Notes under the pieces: model-generated | What the model was told of the DNA's origin: nothing | Database searches by the model: none | The model's input: the letters and a program-made list of their open reading frames with translations, nothing else | Source: an uncultured Pelagibacteraceae bacterium | GTDB taxonomy: Bacteria; Pseudomonadota; Alphaproteobacteria; Pelagibacterales; Pelagibacteraceae | Assembly: GCA_902591025.1 (NCBI GenBank) | Contig: CACIZB010000006.1 | Span: 1 to 41,179 of the forward strand | DNA length: 41,179 nt | Direction: 5' to 3' | In this document: positions 25,695 to 30,837 of the stretch, piece by piece | Numbering within the stretch: position 1 is the first letter of the stretch | Layout of the letters: every line of letters starts with the position of its first letter | Program-made: the position numbers and the translations under genes

Positions 25695-26573
25695 TTAAGA
25701 GTTTTTAAGCTTTAGAAATGAGTGAACTCCTATAGTTGTAATTATAATAATACCTCCAACAAGCGTCTCTACGCTTGGCTGTTCTTTTATAAAATACCAG
25801 ACCCAAATTGGACCTATTATCGTTTCTAACAGGAAAAATAAATTTACTTCTGCAGCAGTTATAAATCTTGGTGCAATAGTTACTAAAACAAAAGGTATTG
25901 CAACGCAAATTACACACATTAGTGGGACGATATAAATATCTGTTCCCACAAGTATGAAGCTTTCAATAAAAAATAAAGCAAATAATGCAACAAATAACTT
26001 ACCAACTACTGCAGCTGGTACTAAATTTTTAGCTTTACCCGACCTAATCGTTATAGCACCAACTGCTAAACCTGTTGCGGTGATAAAACCTAAAATATCT
26101 CCGAAAAAATTTCCTACACTTATAGAGTCAAAAAAAATAAAGATAACAGCTAAAAAAGTTATTAAAATTGATATCCAAGTTTTATTATCAGGGGGTTCTT
26201 TTAGAAAAATTGCACCTAAGACTGCCGATAACATTGGAGCAGTGGCTACCATTATGAGAGTGTTAGAAACATTAGTATTTTGAATAGAAACTACAAAGGT
26301 AACATTAGTAATACTAAATGTAATAATATAAATTATTCCATGTAACCCACTAGCAAATAAAATTTTAAAAAAATTTAGTTTATAAATAACAAGCATTCCA
26401 AAAAAAACTGTAAAAAAGGGTATGATACCTCGATAAAAAACTAATCCCCATGTATCAATATAGGACAATCTAATAAATAAAGAATCTGGCGTAATAAACA
26501 TTACTGCAACAAAAGCAAGTAAAGAACCTTTTTGTTGATCAGTTAAATTATTCAAGCTTTTAAATCTTTCCAA
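25695..26573 (-). CDS. DMT (EamA) family transporter in the glutathione operon
   Basis: A ten-helix DMT protein of 292 residues. The first repeat ends in TNVSNTLIMVATAPMLSAVLGAIFLKEPPD (shown in part) and the second in FLLETIIGPIWVWYFIKEQPS followed by LVGGIIIITT, much like the fragment at the left edge of the window. The start lies inside the end of gshB (22-base overlap), so it is almost certainly translated from the gshA-gshB mRNA. Export of glutathione, gamma-glutamylcysteine or a conjugate is a sensible guess from this coupling, but DMT proteins are varied and nothing in the sequence shows the cargo. Confidence 0.9.
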   Translation of the reverse strand: MERFKSLNNLTDQQKGSLLAFVAVMFITPDSLFIRLSYIDTWGLVFYRGIIPFFTVFFGMLVIYKLNFFKILFASGLHGIIYIITFSITNVTFVVSIQNTNVSNTLIMVATAPMLSAVLGAIFLKEPPDNKTWISILITFLAVIFIFFDSISVGNFFGDILGFITATGLAVGAITIRSGKAKNLVPAAVVGKLFVALFALFFIESFILVGTDIYIVPLMCVICVAIPFVLVTIAPRFITAAEVNLFFLLETIIGPIWVWYFIKEQPSVETLVGGIIIITTIGVHSFLKLKNS

Positions 26574-27478
26574 AAAGTTTTAGCAAGGTTTATATTTGAC
26601 AAATCGTAAAAAGTTTTTAGTCCAGTTGGCGAGGTAACATTGATATCACCATTAAGTTTTTGACCAATAAAATCAATACCTGCAAAAAAAATTTTTTTTT
26701 GTTTAAGATCTTTTGCGATATAATTAGATATTCTAGTCTCTTTTTTGGTTAATTTAGTAATAATAGGTTTTGCACCCTTGCTCATATTACTTAAAAAAGA
26801 ATTCTTTCTTGGAATTCTTGAGATAGCGCCTCTTACTTTACCATTTATGATAAAAACCCTTTTATCACCTTTTCTTATATCAGGTAAAAATTTTTGACAC
26901 ATAATGTGATCATATTTTCTAATAAACTTATTAATAAGATTAAATTTGAACTTATCTAACAAATAAATATCATTTCCACCAAAGCTATGAATAGGTTTTA
27001 TAACTACTCTTTTACATCTTTTAAAAAAATTTTTAATTTCAGAAATATTCTGCGTAAAGATAGTAGGTGGCATAAATTTTAGAAACTTAGCAGAATAAAA
27101 TTTCTCTGATATGTTTCTTATTGATGTTGGATCATTAATAATTTTTACCTTATTTTTGATATTCTCTAATATGAATGTAGTTGAAATATATTCAAGATTA
27201 AATGGAGGATCTTGTCTTATAAGTATAAACTTACATTTAATGAGATCTAATTTTTGACTTTTGATTATTTTATAAAAATTTTTATTAGTATAACTAAATT
27301 TAACAAAAGAGCCTTTGGCAACTACCTTTTTATTAATAATTGATAAGTTTTTTGGAGTAAAATAAAATAATTTATAATTTTTATTTTGAATTTCGTTAGC
27401 CAAAAAAATAGTCGTATCAGTTTTTGGGTTTAATTGAGAAGGATGATTTCCTTGAATTGCAATAATTTTATTTGTCAT
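26552..27478 (-). CDS. gshB: Glutathione synthetase
   Basis: An ATP-grasp ligase joining glycine to gamma-glutamylcysteine to make glutathione. The proteobacterial GshB pattern is visible: LIRQDPPFNLEYISTTFILE, INDPTSIRNISEKFYSAKF, then VIKPIHSFGGNDI, KGDKRVFIINGKVRGAISR and FAGIDFIGQKLNGDINVTSPTG (in parts). At 308 residues it is of normal length. The usual RxPxxxD-type loop is RIPRKNSFLSN. The start overlaps gshA by 11 bases. Because it uses glycine, its flux is tied to the same pool sensed by the gcv riboswitch. Confidence 0.93.
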   Translation of the reverse strand: MTNKIIAIQGNHPSQLNPKTDTTIFLANEIQNKNYKLFYFTPKNLSIINKKVVAKGSFVKFSYTNKNFYKIIKSQKLDLIKCKFILIRQDPPFNLEYISTTFILENIKNKVKIINDPTSIRNISEKFYSAKFLKFMPPTIFTQNISEIKNFFKRCKRVVIKPIHSFGGNDIYLLDKFKFNLINKFIRKYDHIMCQKFLPDIRKGDKRVFIINGKVRGAISRIPRKNSFLSNMSKGAKPIITKLTKKETRISNYIAKDLKQKKIFFAGIDFIGQKLNGDINVTSPTGLKTFYDLSNINLAKTFWKDLKA

Positions 27479-28763
27479 ATAATTCTTTTAAATTTTCATT
27501 TTTTGAAAATTTATTCATCATATGTTCAGCATTTGTAATCTTATTATCTATTATCTTTTGTAAATGATTTAAAAATATAGTTTCATTTTTTCCTGATTTA
27601 TTTAATACATCTCTATTCTCCAGACCTTTTTTTGAAAGATCTAATAGAATTGACGACCAGTATAGAAGATCTTTACCCATTAACTGGGTATTAAAACCTT
27701 TGTATGGTGCTTCCAAATACGCATTAATTATTTTGTCTTTATCCCAAGAAGAAATTAAATCATAAACTTCGTCCAAATTTCCGTATAATATTCCAACAAA
27801 AAAAGCAGGCCCAGCACATAAACAATCCCAGCCACATGTATCCATAGATCTAACTTCAATATATTTCTTTAATCTATTTTCTGTAAAAATTGTGCTCAAG
27901 TGATTAGATAAATCAATTTCATCTGGAATTCTATTATCAATCTCTTTTATTTTTCCATCCATAAAATCTTTAAAAGTATACTTATTTCCAGAGATATATT
28001 TTTCGTCTTTCATGATAAATAACAGTCGTTGTTTCATTATATAATCAGCGTATTTTTCAAAATCTAATTTTTCTAAAAATAGTTTTGGTAAACCACCTCT
28101 AGAAGTATTTTGCCAGACTTTAGATCGGTATGAAAGATATTTACTATTTTTTTTCTCAACAATTGATGAATTTGCAAATAAACTAATAGTAAGCGGAACT
28201 ATTGAATTTGCTATTTGAAATTTTTTTAAAAAATCATCTTCAGACTCATAATCAATATTTAGCTGTGTTCCACAAGTTCGGTACATCATATCTAAACTTA
28301 GTCTGCCATTTTTTGGCATATCTTTTGTCATTATTTTGTATCTTTGCTTAGGATTATTCGGAATTTCGTCTAACTTTGATATGGGATCAAAACCAGCACT
28401 AACAATATTTATGTTTAATTTTTTTGTTACTTGTTTTAATTCAAAAAGATAATCATAGGATTCAGCACATCCTTCATGAATATTATTTAATTTATCACCA
28501 GACAATTCAATTTGATTTCCGGGCTCTAAAGTAATATTTTTACCATCTTTGTTAAGACCAATAATATTCTTTTCTTCTAAAATCGGATTCCATCCAAACT
28601 CCAGCAGAGCTTCAAACATTTTTTTTATTTTTGAATAATTAACTCTTGAATTATCTTGACTATTGAATAAAAATTTTTCGTGTTCAATACCTATTTTAAA
28701 ATCTTTAGTTTTTTTAATGCCTGAATTAAAATATTCAATTATATGCTCTTTGGAAATGATCAT
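27468..28763 (-). CDS. gshA: Glutamate-cysteine ligase (plant/alphaproteobacterial type)
   Basis: Makes gamma-glutamylcysteine from glutamate and cysteine with ATP, the first step to glutathione. At 431 residues it belongs to the GCS2-like class of plants and alphaproteobacteria. Signs are FKIGIEHEKFLF near the N-terminus, LEPGNQIELSG (the glutamate/metal site), DMMYRTCGTQLNIDYESE, and the late YIEVRSMDTCGWDCLCAGPAFFVGILYG region with its several cysteines. It starts 31 bases after the HD-domain gene and overlaps gshB by 11 bases. Redox control through the cysteines, as known for the plant enzyme, is possible but not shown. Confidence 0.93.
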   Translation of the reverse strand: MIISKEHIIEYFNSGIKKTKDFKIGIEHEKFLFNSQDNSRVNYSKIKKMFEALLEFGWNPILEEKNIIGLNKDGKNITLEPGNQIELSGDKLNNIHEGCAESYDYLFELKQVTKKLNINIVSAGFDPISKLDEIPNNPKQRYKIMTKDMPKNGRLSLDMMYRTCGTQLNIDYESEDDFLKKFQIANSIVPLTISLFANSSIVEKKNSKYLSYRSKVWQNTSRGGLPKLFLEKLDFEKYADYIMKQRLLFIMKDEKYISGNKYTFKDFMDGKIKEIDNRIPDEIDLSNHLSTIFTENRLKKYIEVRSMDTCGWDCLCAGPAFFVGILYGNLDEVYDLISSWDKDKIINAYLEAPYKGFNTQLMGKDLLYWSSILLDLSKKGLENRDVLNKSGKNETIFLNHLQKIIDNKITNAEHMMNKFSKNENLKELYDK

Positions 28764-28794: not shown

Positions 28795-29352
28795 TTAAAT
28801 AACAGAATACGGCTTTCTTGAAAAAATTTTTATTACCATAGGTTTAAAGAAATCTAATGGAAATGATATGTAATTTGGGTCAAAAGAATTTTGATCGTAA
28901 TTTTCACAAAAATTAATAGTGTCTTTATAATATTTATGATCTTTATATTTATCTCTCCTATTTTTATCTCCACCTAAATGATGAGCGTAATAAAACATCT
29001 GGAATTCACCATGTTTTTCAATTATCCAGTGTGTCCTCTCAGAAACATAGGGTTTAAGAATTGATGCTGCATATTCTGAATGATTCATTGGGGCTAATTC
29101 ATCACCAATATCATGCAACAAAGCTGCAACCACCATTTCTTCATTTTCATTTGCTTTATACGCTCTTGTGGCACTCTGCAATGAATGTTCTAATCTAGAG
29201 ATTTGATAACCTTCTAGTGTGTCGGTAAGACTAGATAAAAATTTTAATATCCTTTCGGCAGTTTTACTAGCAAAATCTTTTTCGTTTTTATCTAACAAAA
29301 GATAATCCTCTTTAGTTCCATTTTTCATTTCTGTAAAACTTACTTTTTTCAT
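28795..29352 (-). CDS. HD-domain protein, possible mixed-valent di-iron oxygenase of the PhnZ/TmpB group
   Basis: A 185-residue single-domain HD protein. Metal-ligand candidates occur in the order known for PhnZ-like HD oxygenases: H56 in RLEHSLQSATRA, H80-D81 in ALLHDIGD, H91 in MNHSEYAA, H114 in IEKHGEFQ, and D153 or D158 near the end. Six such ligands and the EHSLQ-ATRA segment resemble this oxygenase group more than ordinary HD phosphohydrolases. The YxxE pair I recall as phosphonate-specific in PhnZ is not seen, so the substrate is unknown. It starts 3 bases after the purF stop, and gshA follows 31 bases downstream, so expression is tied to both. Confidence 0.78.
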   Translation of the reverse strand: MKKVSFTEMKNGTKEDYLLLDKNEKDFASKTAERILKFLSSLTDTLEGYQISRLEHSLQSATRAYKANENEEMVVAALLHDIGDELAPMNHSEYAASILKPYVSERTHWIIEKHGEFQMFYYAHHLGGDKNRRDKYKDHKYYKDTINFCENYDQNSFDPNYISFPLDFFKPMVIKIFSRKPYSVI

Positions 29353-29355
29353 TAT

Positions 29356-30837
29356 TTAATTATATGTAGCCGTGCTTAATAACGATAGTTGAGTGATTTT
29401 ACTGTCACCAAGTTCATCGACAGGTTTTACAGGATAGTCGCCAGTGAAATAGTGATCTGTTAGTTGAGGATAGGTCTCATTCCTTCTATCAAAACCAATA
29501 GCTTTATATAAACCATTGATCGATAAAAATTTTAGAGATTTTGCACCAATATATTCACATATTTCATCATTAGATTTATTTGCTGCTAGCAATTCTTTTT
29601 TTGTAGGAGTATCTACTCCATAAAAATCTGGAAATTTTATTTCTGGACAAGCTATCATTACGTGAACCTCTTTTGCTCCAGCATCATATAACATTTTAAC
29701 AATTTTATGTGATGTAGTCCCTCTAACAAGAGAGTCATCAATAAGAATAATCTTTTTATTTTTTATTGTTGTTTCATTTGCATTTAACTTTAACTTTACA
29801 CCCAAACTTCTTATTTTTTGGCTTGGTTCGATAAAGGTTCGACCAACATAATGATTTCTTATTAAACCATGTTCAAAATTTATCTTAAGTTCCTGAGAAA
29901 AGCCAAGCGCAGCTGCATTTCCAGAATCAGGTACCGGTACTACAATATCAGCATTAATATTATTCTCTTTTGCTAGTTCTTTTCCCAAATTTTTTCTATG
30001 TTCATAAGCAGTTTTGTTATCTAGTAGACTATCTGGCCTTGAAAAGTAAATATATTCAAAAACACAAGGGCGCACTTTTTTTGGTGGGAAGGGTTTAATA
30101 CTGATCAATTTATTATTTTCTATTAACACAATTTCTCCATTTTCTACTTCTCTTAAAAATTTGGCACCAATTATATCTAACGCACAAGTTTCTGAGGCTA
30201 GTACATAACTATTTCCTAATTTACCTATTACCAAAGGTCTTATTCCATAAGGATCCCTTACTCCAATTAAAGAATTTTGAGTAAGCATCACCAATGCATA
30301 TCCTCCCTGAATTTGAAAAATAGCATCAACAACTTTATCTATTGTTTTTGATCTCTTAGATTTTGCAATTAGTTGAACAATAGTTTCTGTGTCAGATGTA
30401 GTATAAAAGATAGCACCTTCTTCAACGAGTTTATTTCTTAATGAAATTGAGTTTGTTAAATTTCCATTATGGGCAACCCCAATTCCTCCAGCATTTGTAT
30501 CAGCAAAAAAAGGCTGAATATTTCTTAAAGTATTATTTCCAGTCGTGCTGTATCGATTGTGGCCTATAGCATAATTGCCTTTAAGATTATTTAGAACCTT
30601 TTCCTTATTAAAATTATCACCCACTAATCCAAATCTTTTTTCAGAAAAATACTTCTTACCATCAAATGATACAATTCCACATCCTTCTTGACCTCTGTGC
30701 TGTAATGCATGAAGACCTAGAGCTGTTAAGGCCGATGCATCTTTGGCGTTACTTATACCAAATACTCCACACTCTTCACCCAATTTAGGATTATAGATCT
30801 TTAATTTTCTCTTTTGAATTTTGATATGTTTTTTCAT
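29356..30837 (-). CDS. purF: Amidophosphoribosyltransferase
   Basis: First committed enzyme of purine synthesis: moves ammonia from glutamine to PRPP. It has an N-terminal Ntn-glutaminase domain whose nucleophile would be C23 (GEECGVFGI) after removal of a 22-residue propeptide, then HRGQEGCGI, HNRYSTTG and the loop TSDTETIVQLI. The C-terminal phosphoribosyltransferase domain has the PRPP motif IILIDDSLVRGTTS. At 493 residues it is of normal size. The ATG at 30837 lies 47 bases inside cvpA; no later ATG precedes C23, though a non-ATG start inside the propeptide is possible. Confidence 0.96.
   Translation of the reverse strand: MKKHIKIQKRKLKIYNPKLGEECGVFGISNAKDASALTALGLHALQHRGQEGCGIVSFDGKKYFSEKRFGLVGDNFNKEKVLNNLKGNYAIGHNRYSTTGNNTLRNIQPFFADTNAGGIGVAHNGNLTNSISLRNKLVEEGAIFYTTSDTETIVQLIAKSKRSKTIDKVVDAIFQIQGGYALVMLTQNSLIGVRDPYGIRPLVIGKLGNSYVLASETCALDIIGAKFLREVENGEIVLIENNKLISIKPFPPKKVRPCVFEYIYFSRPDSLLDNKTAYEHRKNLGKELAKENNINADIVVPVPDSGNAAALGFSQELKINFEHGLIRNHYVGRTFIEPSQKIRSLGVKLKLNANETTIKNKKIILIDDSLVRGTTSHKIVKMLYDAGAKEVHVMIACPEIKFPDFYGVDTPTKKELLAANKSNDEICEYIGAKSLKFLSINGLYKAIGFDRRNETYPQLTDHYFTGDYPVKPVDELGDSKITQLSLLSTATYN

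Follow-up and report, generated by a model that had tools for sequence, protein, structure and literature searches.

Gene neighborhood of the HD-domain gene

The window analyzed here, a 41,179-nucleotide stretch of a contig from an uncultured Pelagibacteraceae bacterium, codes on its minus strand for a 185-residue HD-domain protein, whose ORF opens with an ATG and lies, as the first-pass annotation had placed it, between purF and a gshA-like gene that scores below its model cutoff (Table 1). A gap of 3 bp separates purF from the HD gene. At E 1e-3 the window's genome (86% complete) has no second match of this kind.

Table 1. Genes and conserved codons at the HD-domain locus, in window coordinates
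Feature	Position	Strand	Detail
HD-domain protein, candidate di-iron oxygenase	28795..29352	-	185 aa
purF, upstream neighbor (context only)	29356..30837	-	TIGR01134 492 bits, cutoff 350
Glutamate-cysteine-ligase-like (gshA-like) gene	27468-28763		TIGR01436 380 bits, below cutoff 463
Glutathione synthase, beyond gshA-like gene	26552-27478		NF003573 281 bits, cutoff 272
H56 codon, predicted metal ligand (PhnZ H34)	29185..29187	-	92/92 rows; PhnZ alignment
H80 and D81 codons, HD dyad (PhnZ H58, D59)	29110..29115	-	92/92 rows
H91 codon, predicted metal ligand (PhnZ H80 by position)	29080..29082	-	92/92 rows; His in 9/9 TmpB-type rows
H114 codon, predicted metal ligand (PhnZ H104)	29011..29013	-	92/92 rows
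D153 codon, predicted sixth ligand (PhnZ D161)	28894..28896	-	92/92 rows; alignment
Y49 codon, at Glu site of YxxE	29206..29208	-	Y 55 and F 26 of 92 rows; E in 9/9 TmpB-type rows
D84 codon, replaces PhnZ His62	29101..29103	-	Asp 89/92 rows; His 8/9 TmpB-type rows
Q118 codon, at TmpB-type pocket Lys site	28999..29001	-	Q 91/92 rows; K 9/9 TmpB-type rows

With genes in the fetched loci called by a simple script rather than a trained gene finder, purF was found directly upstream of the HD gene in 72 of 80 SAR11 loci (L061-L140), and the gene downstream was gshA in 37, an unmatched same-strand gene in 25, and an EamA-like transporter in six. Frequent among these unmatched genes is a family of about 650 residues, by eye of the thioredoxin-domain type; for one example, NCBIfam gave no match at 1e-10. 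A purF homolog occurs within 8 kb of the HD gene in only one of 60 loci from the wider class, and because of this we dropped a functional tie to purF or the glutathione genes.

Predicted metal site, fold, and phyletic spread

Pfam recognizes the protein as an HD domain (31.9 bits, cutoff 22). Its best NCBIfam models are those of phosphonate-directed HD oxygenases, all far under their cutoffs: PhnZ (TIGR03276, 37 bits against 214.6), TmpB (NF049941, 29 against 300), and the separate PhnZ1 model that NCBIfam also holds (NF052439, 26 against 300). PDB sequence searches at E < 0.01 recovered PhnZ and TmpB only, with no significant match to MIOX.

The first-pass annotation had listed H56, H80, D81, H91, H114, and either D153 or D158 as candidate metal ligands. 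The first five, along with D153, do not vary across the 92 family rows, and the same residues occupy the six columns in nine TmpB-type rows, except for one Glu in place of the last Asp. D158 is also kept, in 91 of 92 rows; nevertheless, the alignment identifies D153 as the likely sixth ligand, because it is the residue that aligns with the metal-binding D161 of PhnZ and is Asp in eight of the nine TmpB-type rows. The resulting H...HD...H...H...D set is that of the HD-type di-iron oxygenases MIOX, PhnZ, and TmpB. This pattern alone is not decisive, since the available text of a 2020 review attributes it also to the di-iron Ap4A hydrolase YqeK (PMC8177086). The fold is closer to the oxygenases than to the HD hydrolases: a fold comparison of an AlphaFold model (pLDDT 95.7, pTM 0.90), in the spirit of the check that had been suggested, matched PhnZ, TmpB, and MIOX with Z 17.7, 17.2, and 11.5, respectively, followed by PPX/GppA at 8.2, with all other listed entries at or below that value. 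YqeK itself matches weakly (Z 6.3-6.6), with membership among the HD phosphohydrolases being possible at that level.

Matches at E 1e-3 were found in 47 of 61 near genomes, the window's own included (near full length in 45), and in 94 of 289 genomes of the class. We drew the family line at 100 bits, which 82 of these 94 exceed and 12 do not. Among 299 genomes of the phylum, 40 have a match at 1e-15, and 12 of these 40 do not belong to the class. Close orthologs are present in named Pelagibacteraceae (SAR11) genomes, with a top identity of 88% among the best 80 of 582 matches. Relatives also occur on fifteen plasmid records, labeled, where annotated, as HD domain-containing protein, phosphohydrolase, hypothetical protein, or, in one instance, inositol oxygenase family protein; phages yielded two weak partial matches. 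In a FastTree analysis of 101 rows, which has some long branches, a single 38-row set (support 97) gathers the window and SAR11 proteins, all 15 HD proteins adjacent to the dioxygenase TauD2 described below, three linked to PhyH-type genes, one beside a fatty-acid hydroxylase, and nine rows without a named partner; the TmpB-type rows fall outside it (support 100). The review cited above counts, in its available text, three HD-domain oxygenases (PMC8177086), and a literature search that covered few subscription papers found no paper describing this family. Judging from the searchable literature, we regard it as a new subfamily of the HD di-iron oxygenases.

A remodeled substrate pocket

As a reference we used nine dioxygenases scoring 254-309 bits on A2, a profile built from seven dioxygenases directly adjacent to HD relatives; these nine adjoin HD proteins that score 37-53 bits on A1 and form the TmpB-type rows. 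Six of the nine HD proteins were scanned: four pass the TmpB cutoff, one reaches 257 of the required 300, and the sixth, nearest to TIGR03276, is fused in one ORF with its dioxygenase. A natural fusion of both steps is seen at L229:6781-8577 (G223:C67), where a single 599-residue ORF combines a TmpA-type dioxygenase with a PhnZ/TmpB-type HD domain.

The first-pass annotation was right that the window protein lacks the YxxE pair: all nine TmpB-type rows have Y..E where it has L46..Y49. The first of these places is variable across the 92 family rows (L 31, F 15, K 8, H 8, Y 7), and the second, the Glu site, is aromatic in 81 (Y 55, F 26). The positively charged pocket of the TmpB-type proteins, with Lys, Arg, and Lys in nine of nine rows each and His in eight, is occupied in the family by Q118 (91/92), E150 (61/92), F157 (92/92), and D84 (89/92), the last at the place of the substrate-contacting His62 of PhnZ, as described in the available text of PMC7916636. 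By these residues the family is distinct from TmpB.

The partner dioxygenase TauD2

The same annotation saw no TmpA- or PhnY-like partner, which is correct for the window but not for the genome. In the search for a 2OG-dioxygenase partner that it had proposed, profile A2 at E 1e-3 returned a single match of 526 bits, G000:C3:20209-21300, on contig C3 and thus on another contig than the window (C6); we call this TmpA-like 2OG dioxygenase TauD2. Its best NCBIfam model is TmpA (NF049936), on which it scores 348 bits, six of the seven A2 dioxygenases, as scanned, 334-353, and another TauD2 343, all under the cutoff of 400. On the TMLD/TMLH model (TIGR02410, cutoff 268.3), the window genome's protein scores 195 bits, six TauD2 proteins 168-193, and another 183.

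TauD2 differs from TmpA at the N187 position. There, Asp is found in 27 of 27 distinct TauD2 proteins, while Asn is found in nine of nine TmpB-paired dioxygenases. According to the available text of PMC9296572, N187 of TmpA binds the phosphonate and is equivalent to N191 of BBOX; that of PMC7764450 places D231 of TMLH at the same position, as the presumed binding residue for the alpha-ammonium of trimethyllysine. Thus, TauD2 has the D231-type Asp in place of the TmpA Asn. At the R288 position Arg (or Lys) is kept in 27 of 27, and the two aromatic cage positions that were checked are still aromatic. The TauD2 line was drawn at 420 bits, below which one protein with the Asp falls (L219, 335 bits).

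Co-occurrence and adjacency of the two genes

The co-occurrence counts come from a single search per gene, with a protein query for HD and a profile for TauD2. In the sister family f2, HD is present in 21 of 24 genomes and TauD2 in the same 21, in each of which TauD2 lies directly upstream of HD on the same strand, with gaps of -10 to +1. In the class sample, HD occurs in 10 of 11 genomes with TauD2 and in 72 of the 278 others (Fisher p 1.9e-5, relatedness ignored), such that 72 of the 82 HD genomes are without TauD2; the two genes are adjacent in five genomes (G319, G323, G165, G108, G233). In the window's own family f1, whose 37 genomes are in many cases incomplete, both genes were found in 18, HD only in six, TauD2 only in eight, and neither in five, a non-significant association (p 0.31), and the genes were unlinked in the f1 genomes seen. 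The eight f1 genomes that are at least 90% complete (G004, G009, G012, G022, G029, G033, G158, G267) comprise five with both, two with neither, and one with TauD2 only. Adjacency is kept in three SAR11 loci (L108, L131, L136), whose HD proteins belong to the same clade as the window protein.

Other partners and genomic context

PhnY, the hydroxylase partner of PhnZ, is of the PhyH type. A PhyH-type gene lies directly upstream of HD in L175, L152, and L180 (12, 15, and 98 bp by the script), loci that have no TauD2 there, and such a hydroxylase appears from this arrangement to be an alternative HD partner. In L201, an HD relative without TauD2 adjoins a 2OG oxygenase. A scan of operonic genes (58 of 82), which left out TauD2 genes, genes under 190 residues, and a few others, recovered four PhyH, two 2OG-type, two Rieske, and two fatty-acid hydroxylase members; in a control set of 58 distal genes, drawn from these loci of the class, the 25 families listed of 91 included none of these four kinds, and one TauD. 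A LysR gene is divergent from the pair in L142 (annotated) and in L151 and L184 (clustered with that of L142), and a LysR-like gene is likewise divergent, by eye, in L152, L175, and L180. On a Pseudomonas aeruginosa plasmid, an HD relative of 55% identity begins 1 bp downstream of a TauD/TfdA dioxygenase; next come genes for a choline-binding protein (458 bits, cutoff 379), a choline-dehydrogenase-type protein, and an aldehyde dehydrogenase.

In the f2 locus L232, TauD2 and HD are accompanied by genes for an aldehyde dehydrogenase and an acetoacetate-CoA ligase (839 bits, cutoff 639), and the divergent genes code for BKACE-like (245, cutoff 382), carnitine-dehydrogenase-like (371, cutoff 414), and gamma-butyrobetaine-dioxygenase-like (313, cutoff 415) proteins, and further for the DMSP lyase DddP (L232:1196-2563; 788 bits, cutoff 600) and a homocysteine-methyltransferase-like protein. 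Locus L231 has a choline-type permease (429 bits, cutoff 363), and L108 two ProX genes (344 and 348 bits, cutoff 215) with a ProW-like gene. The context of these three loci points to the catabolism of betaines, carnitine, and DMSP. A coupling to carnitine, strong in the f2 loci, was dropped as a general explanation: at E 1e-30 the window's genome and many f1 genomes have no carnitine-dehydrogenase-like or BKACE-like gene, so that these genes do not define the substrate there, and both are present in two genomes that lack the HD-TauD2 pair (G038, G039).

Proposed function and alternatives

The HD family can be placed against three known systems. With 2-trimethylaminoethylphosphonate hydroxylase/oxygenase (TmpA/TmpB; TmpB structure 6NPA) it shares the hydroxylase gene directly upstream in paired loci, the six ligands, and a closely matching fold, but differs in its low score on the TmpB model, the missing YxxE, the replaced Lys/Arg/Lys/His pocket, and the TauD2 Asp for Asn187. 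PhnZ (4MLM, 4MLN, 4N6W, 4N71) is the best fold match, and some HD relatives have a PhyH-type gene directly upstream, as in PhnY/PhnZ, whereas the score on TIGR03276 is far under its cutoff and E27 and H62 of PhnZ are replaced by Y49 and D84. MIOX has the six-ligand di-iron oxygenase fold in common with the family, but as a weaker match than PhnZ or TmpB. As for TauD2, it shares with TMLH the Asp at the D231 position (PMC7764450, available text), yet its 168-195 bits on the TMLD model are below its TmpA scores.

We posit, with reasonable though not full confidence, that the HD protein belongs with PhnZ, TmpB, and MIOX among the non-heme di-iron oxygenases, forming a separate subfamily with a remodeled pocket and catalyzing the second step of a two-enzyme module for onium (betaine-type) compounds. 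Here the first-pass proposal of an oxygenase related to PhnZ and TmpB with another substrate is supported by the fold, the ligand set, and the gene pairing, which, like the pocket differences, were computed in this study; the presence of iron, the use of O2, and the cleavage chemistry are what we infer from them. A mononuclear iron/2OG hydroxylase, TauD2 in SAR11, would hydroxylate a carbon of an onium compound (a trimethylammonium or possibly a sulfonium). By analogy with PhnZ, as set out in the available text of PMC7916636, the HD enzyme would then hold the hydroxylated product on one iron and activate O2 on the other, and the resulting superoxo would abstract the hydrogen of the carbinol carbon, upon which the neighboring C-X bond would break and the carbinol carbon would become a carboxylate. 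In this scheme the onium group may be contacted by Y49 (or Phe), and an amine by D84. A betaine is the likely product, for example glycine betaine or gamma-butyrobetaine. Substrates considered include 3-hydroxy-trimethyllysine (giving gamma-butyrobetaine), a shorter amino-onium acid or a compound of the S-methylmethionine type, carnitine, and compounds of the beta-alanine betaine or DMSP type (giving glycine betaine or its sulfonium analog).

One alternative is that the HD protein, as a divergent enzyme, cleaves a C-P bond and so provides a second TmpB-like route, with an onium or amino phosphonate as its substrate. PhnZ and TmpB are indeed the closest characterized enzymes by both sequence and fold, TauD2 is nearest to TmpA, and the Arg (or Lys) at the R288 position is universal in TauD2. 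Nevertheless, the Lys, Arg, Lys, and His (8/9) of the TmpB-type pocket have given way to Gln, mostly Glu, Phe, and Asp, and the phosphonate-binding Asn187 of TmpA (PMC9296572, available text) to Asp. This loss of positive pocket residues, together with the gain of an Asp in both enzymes, disfavors a phosphonate and favors a substrate whose amino group lies close to the cleavage site. Moreover, no phosphonate gene was named beside the HD-TauD2 pair in the loci scanned, where L151 has a PstS-like gene downstream. The substrate of the pair is, therefore, probably no phosphonate, and we hold C-P cleavage to be very unlikely.

A hydrolytic reading, in which the protein is a phosphohydrolase of the HD type, tied to its neighbor purF and with a nucleotide or a purine intermediate as substrate, would account for the recurrent purF adjacency in SAR11 (72/80) and for the ligand pattern shared with YqeK (PMC8177086, available text). 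It sits poorly with the fold (Z 6.3-6.6 for YqeK versus 17.7 for PhnZ), with the single class locus in 60 that has purF within 8 kb, and with the hydroxylases that are the recurring neighbors of HD, and we give it little credence. One might also suppose that in SAR11 f1 the HD protein left the TauD2 pair, now stands with purF, and acts on another substrate, given the lack of linkage between the two genes in the window's genome and their non-significant co-occurrence in f1. The ligands and pocket residues are, however, unchanged, adjacency persists in three SAR11 loci of the same clade, and the most complete f1 genomes have both genes in five of eight cases, with HD alone in none; such a departure seems to us highly doubtful.

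Within the favored onium module, a more specific and rather unlikely version casts TauD2 as a bacterial trimethyllysine-type hydroxylase and has the HD enzyme cleave C2-C3 of 3-hydroxy-trimethyllysine, or a similar amino-onium acid, to gamma-butyrobetaine, glyoxylate, and ammonia. If so, the HD step would replace two enzymes of carnitine biosynthesis, the aldolase and the aldehyde dehydrogenase, and SAR11 and other Alphaproteobacteria would have an HD oxygenase whose substrate is an amino acid. The broader proposal, if true, adds an HD oxygenase subfamily with another substrate class, present in 82 of 289 sampled class genomes and in SAR11. As there is a partner gene with linked residue changes, the substrate is directly testable with one hydroxylase, one oxygenase, and a few onium compounds.

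Variant loci

Some dioxygenases near HD-family genes depart from the Asp: a divergent TauD with Asn is 321 bp away in L165, one with Asn is 1.2 kb away in L220, and one with Ser is 22 bp from an HD-family gene in two pieces in L221. By their residues, these cases speak against a strict Asp code for HD partners. The two-piece gene that follows the non-Asp TauD (L221:9777-10110; G341:C29) is probably a decayed copy. Genome G090 has TauD2 without HD, and at the place that HD takes after TauD2 in the related G319, with neighbors otherwise shared, it has a gene (L214:10365-11510) with weak matches to enolase-superfamily dehydratases; it is possible that this dehydratase-like gene replaces the second step.
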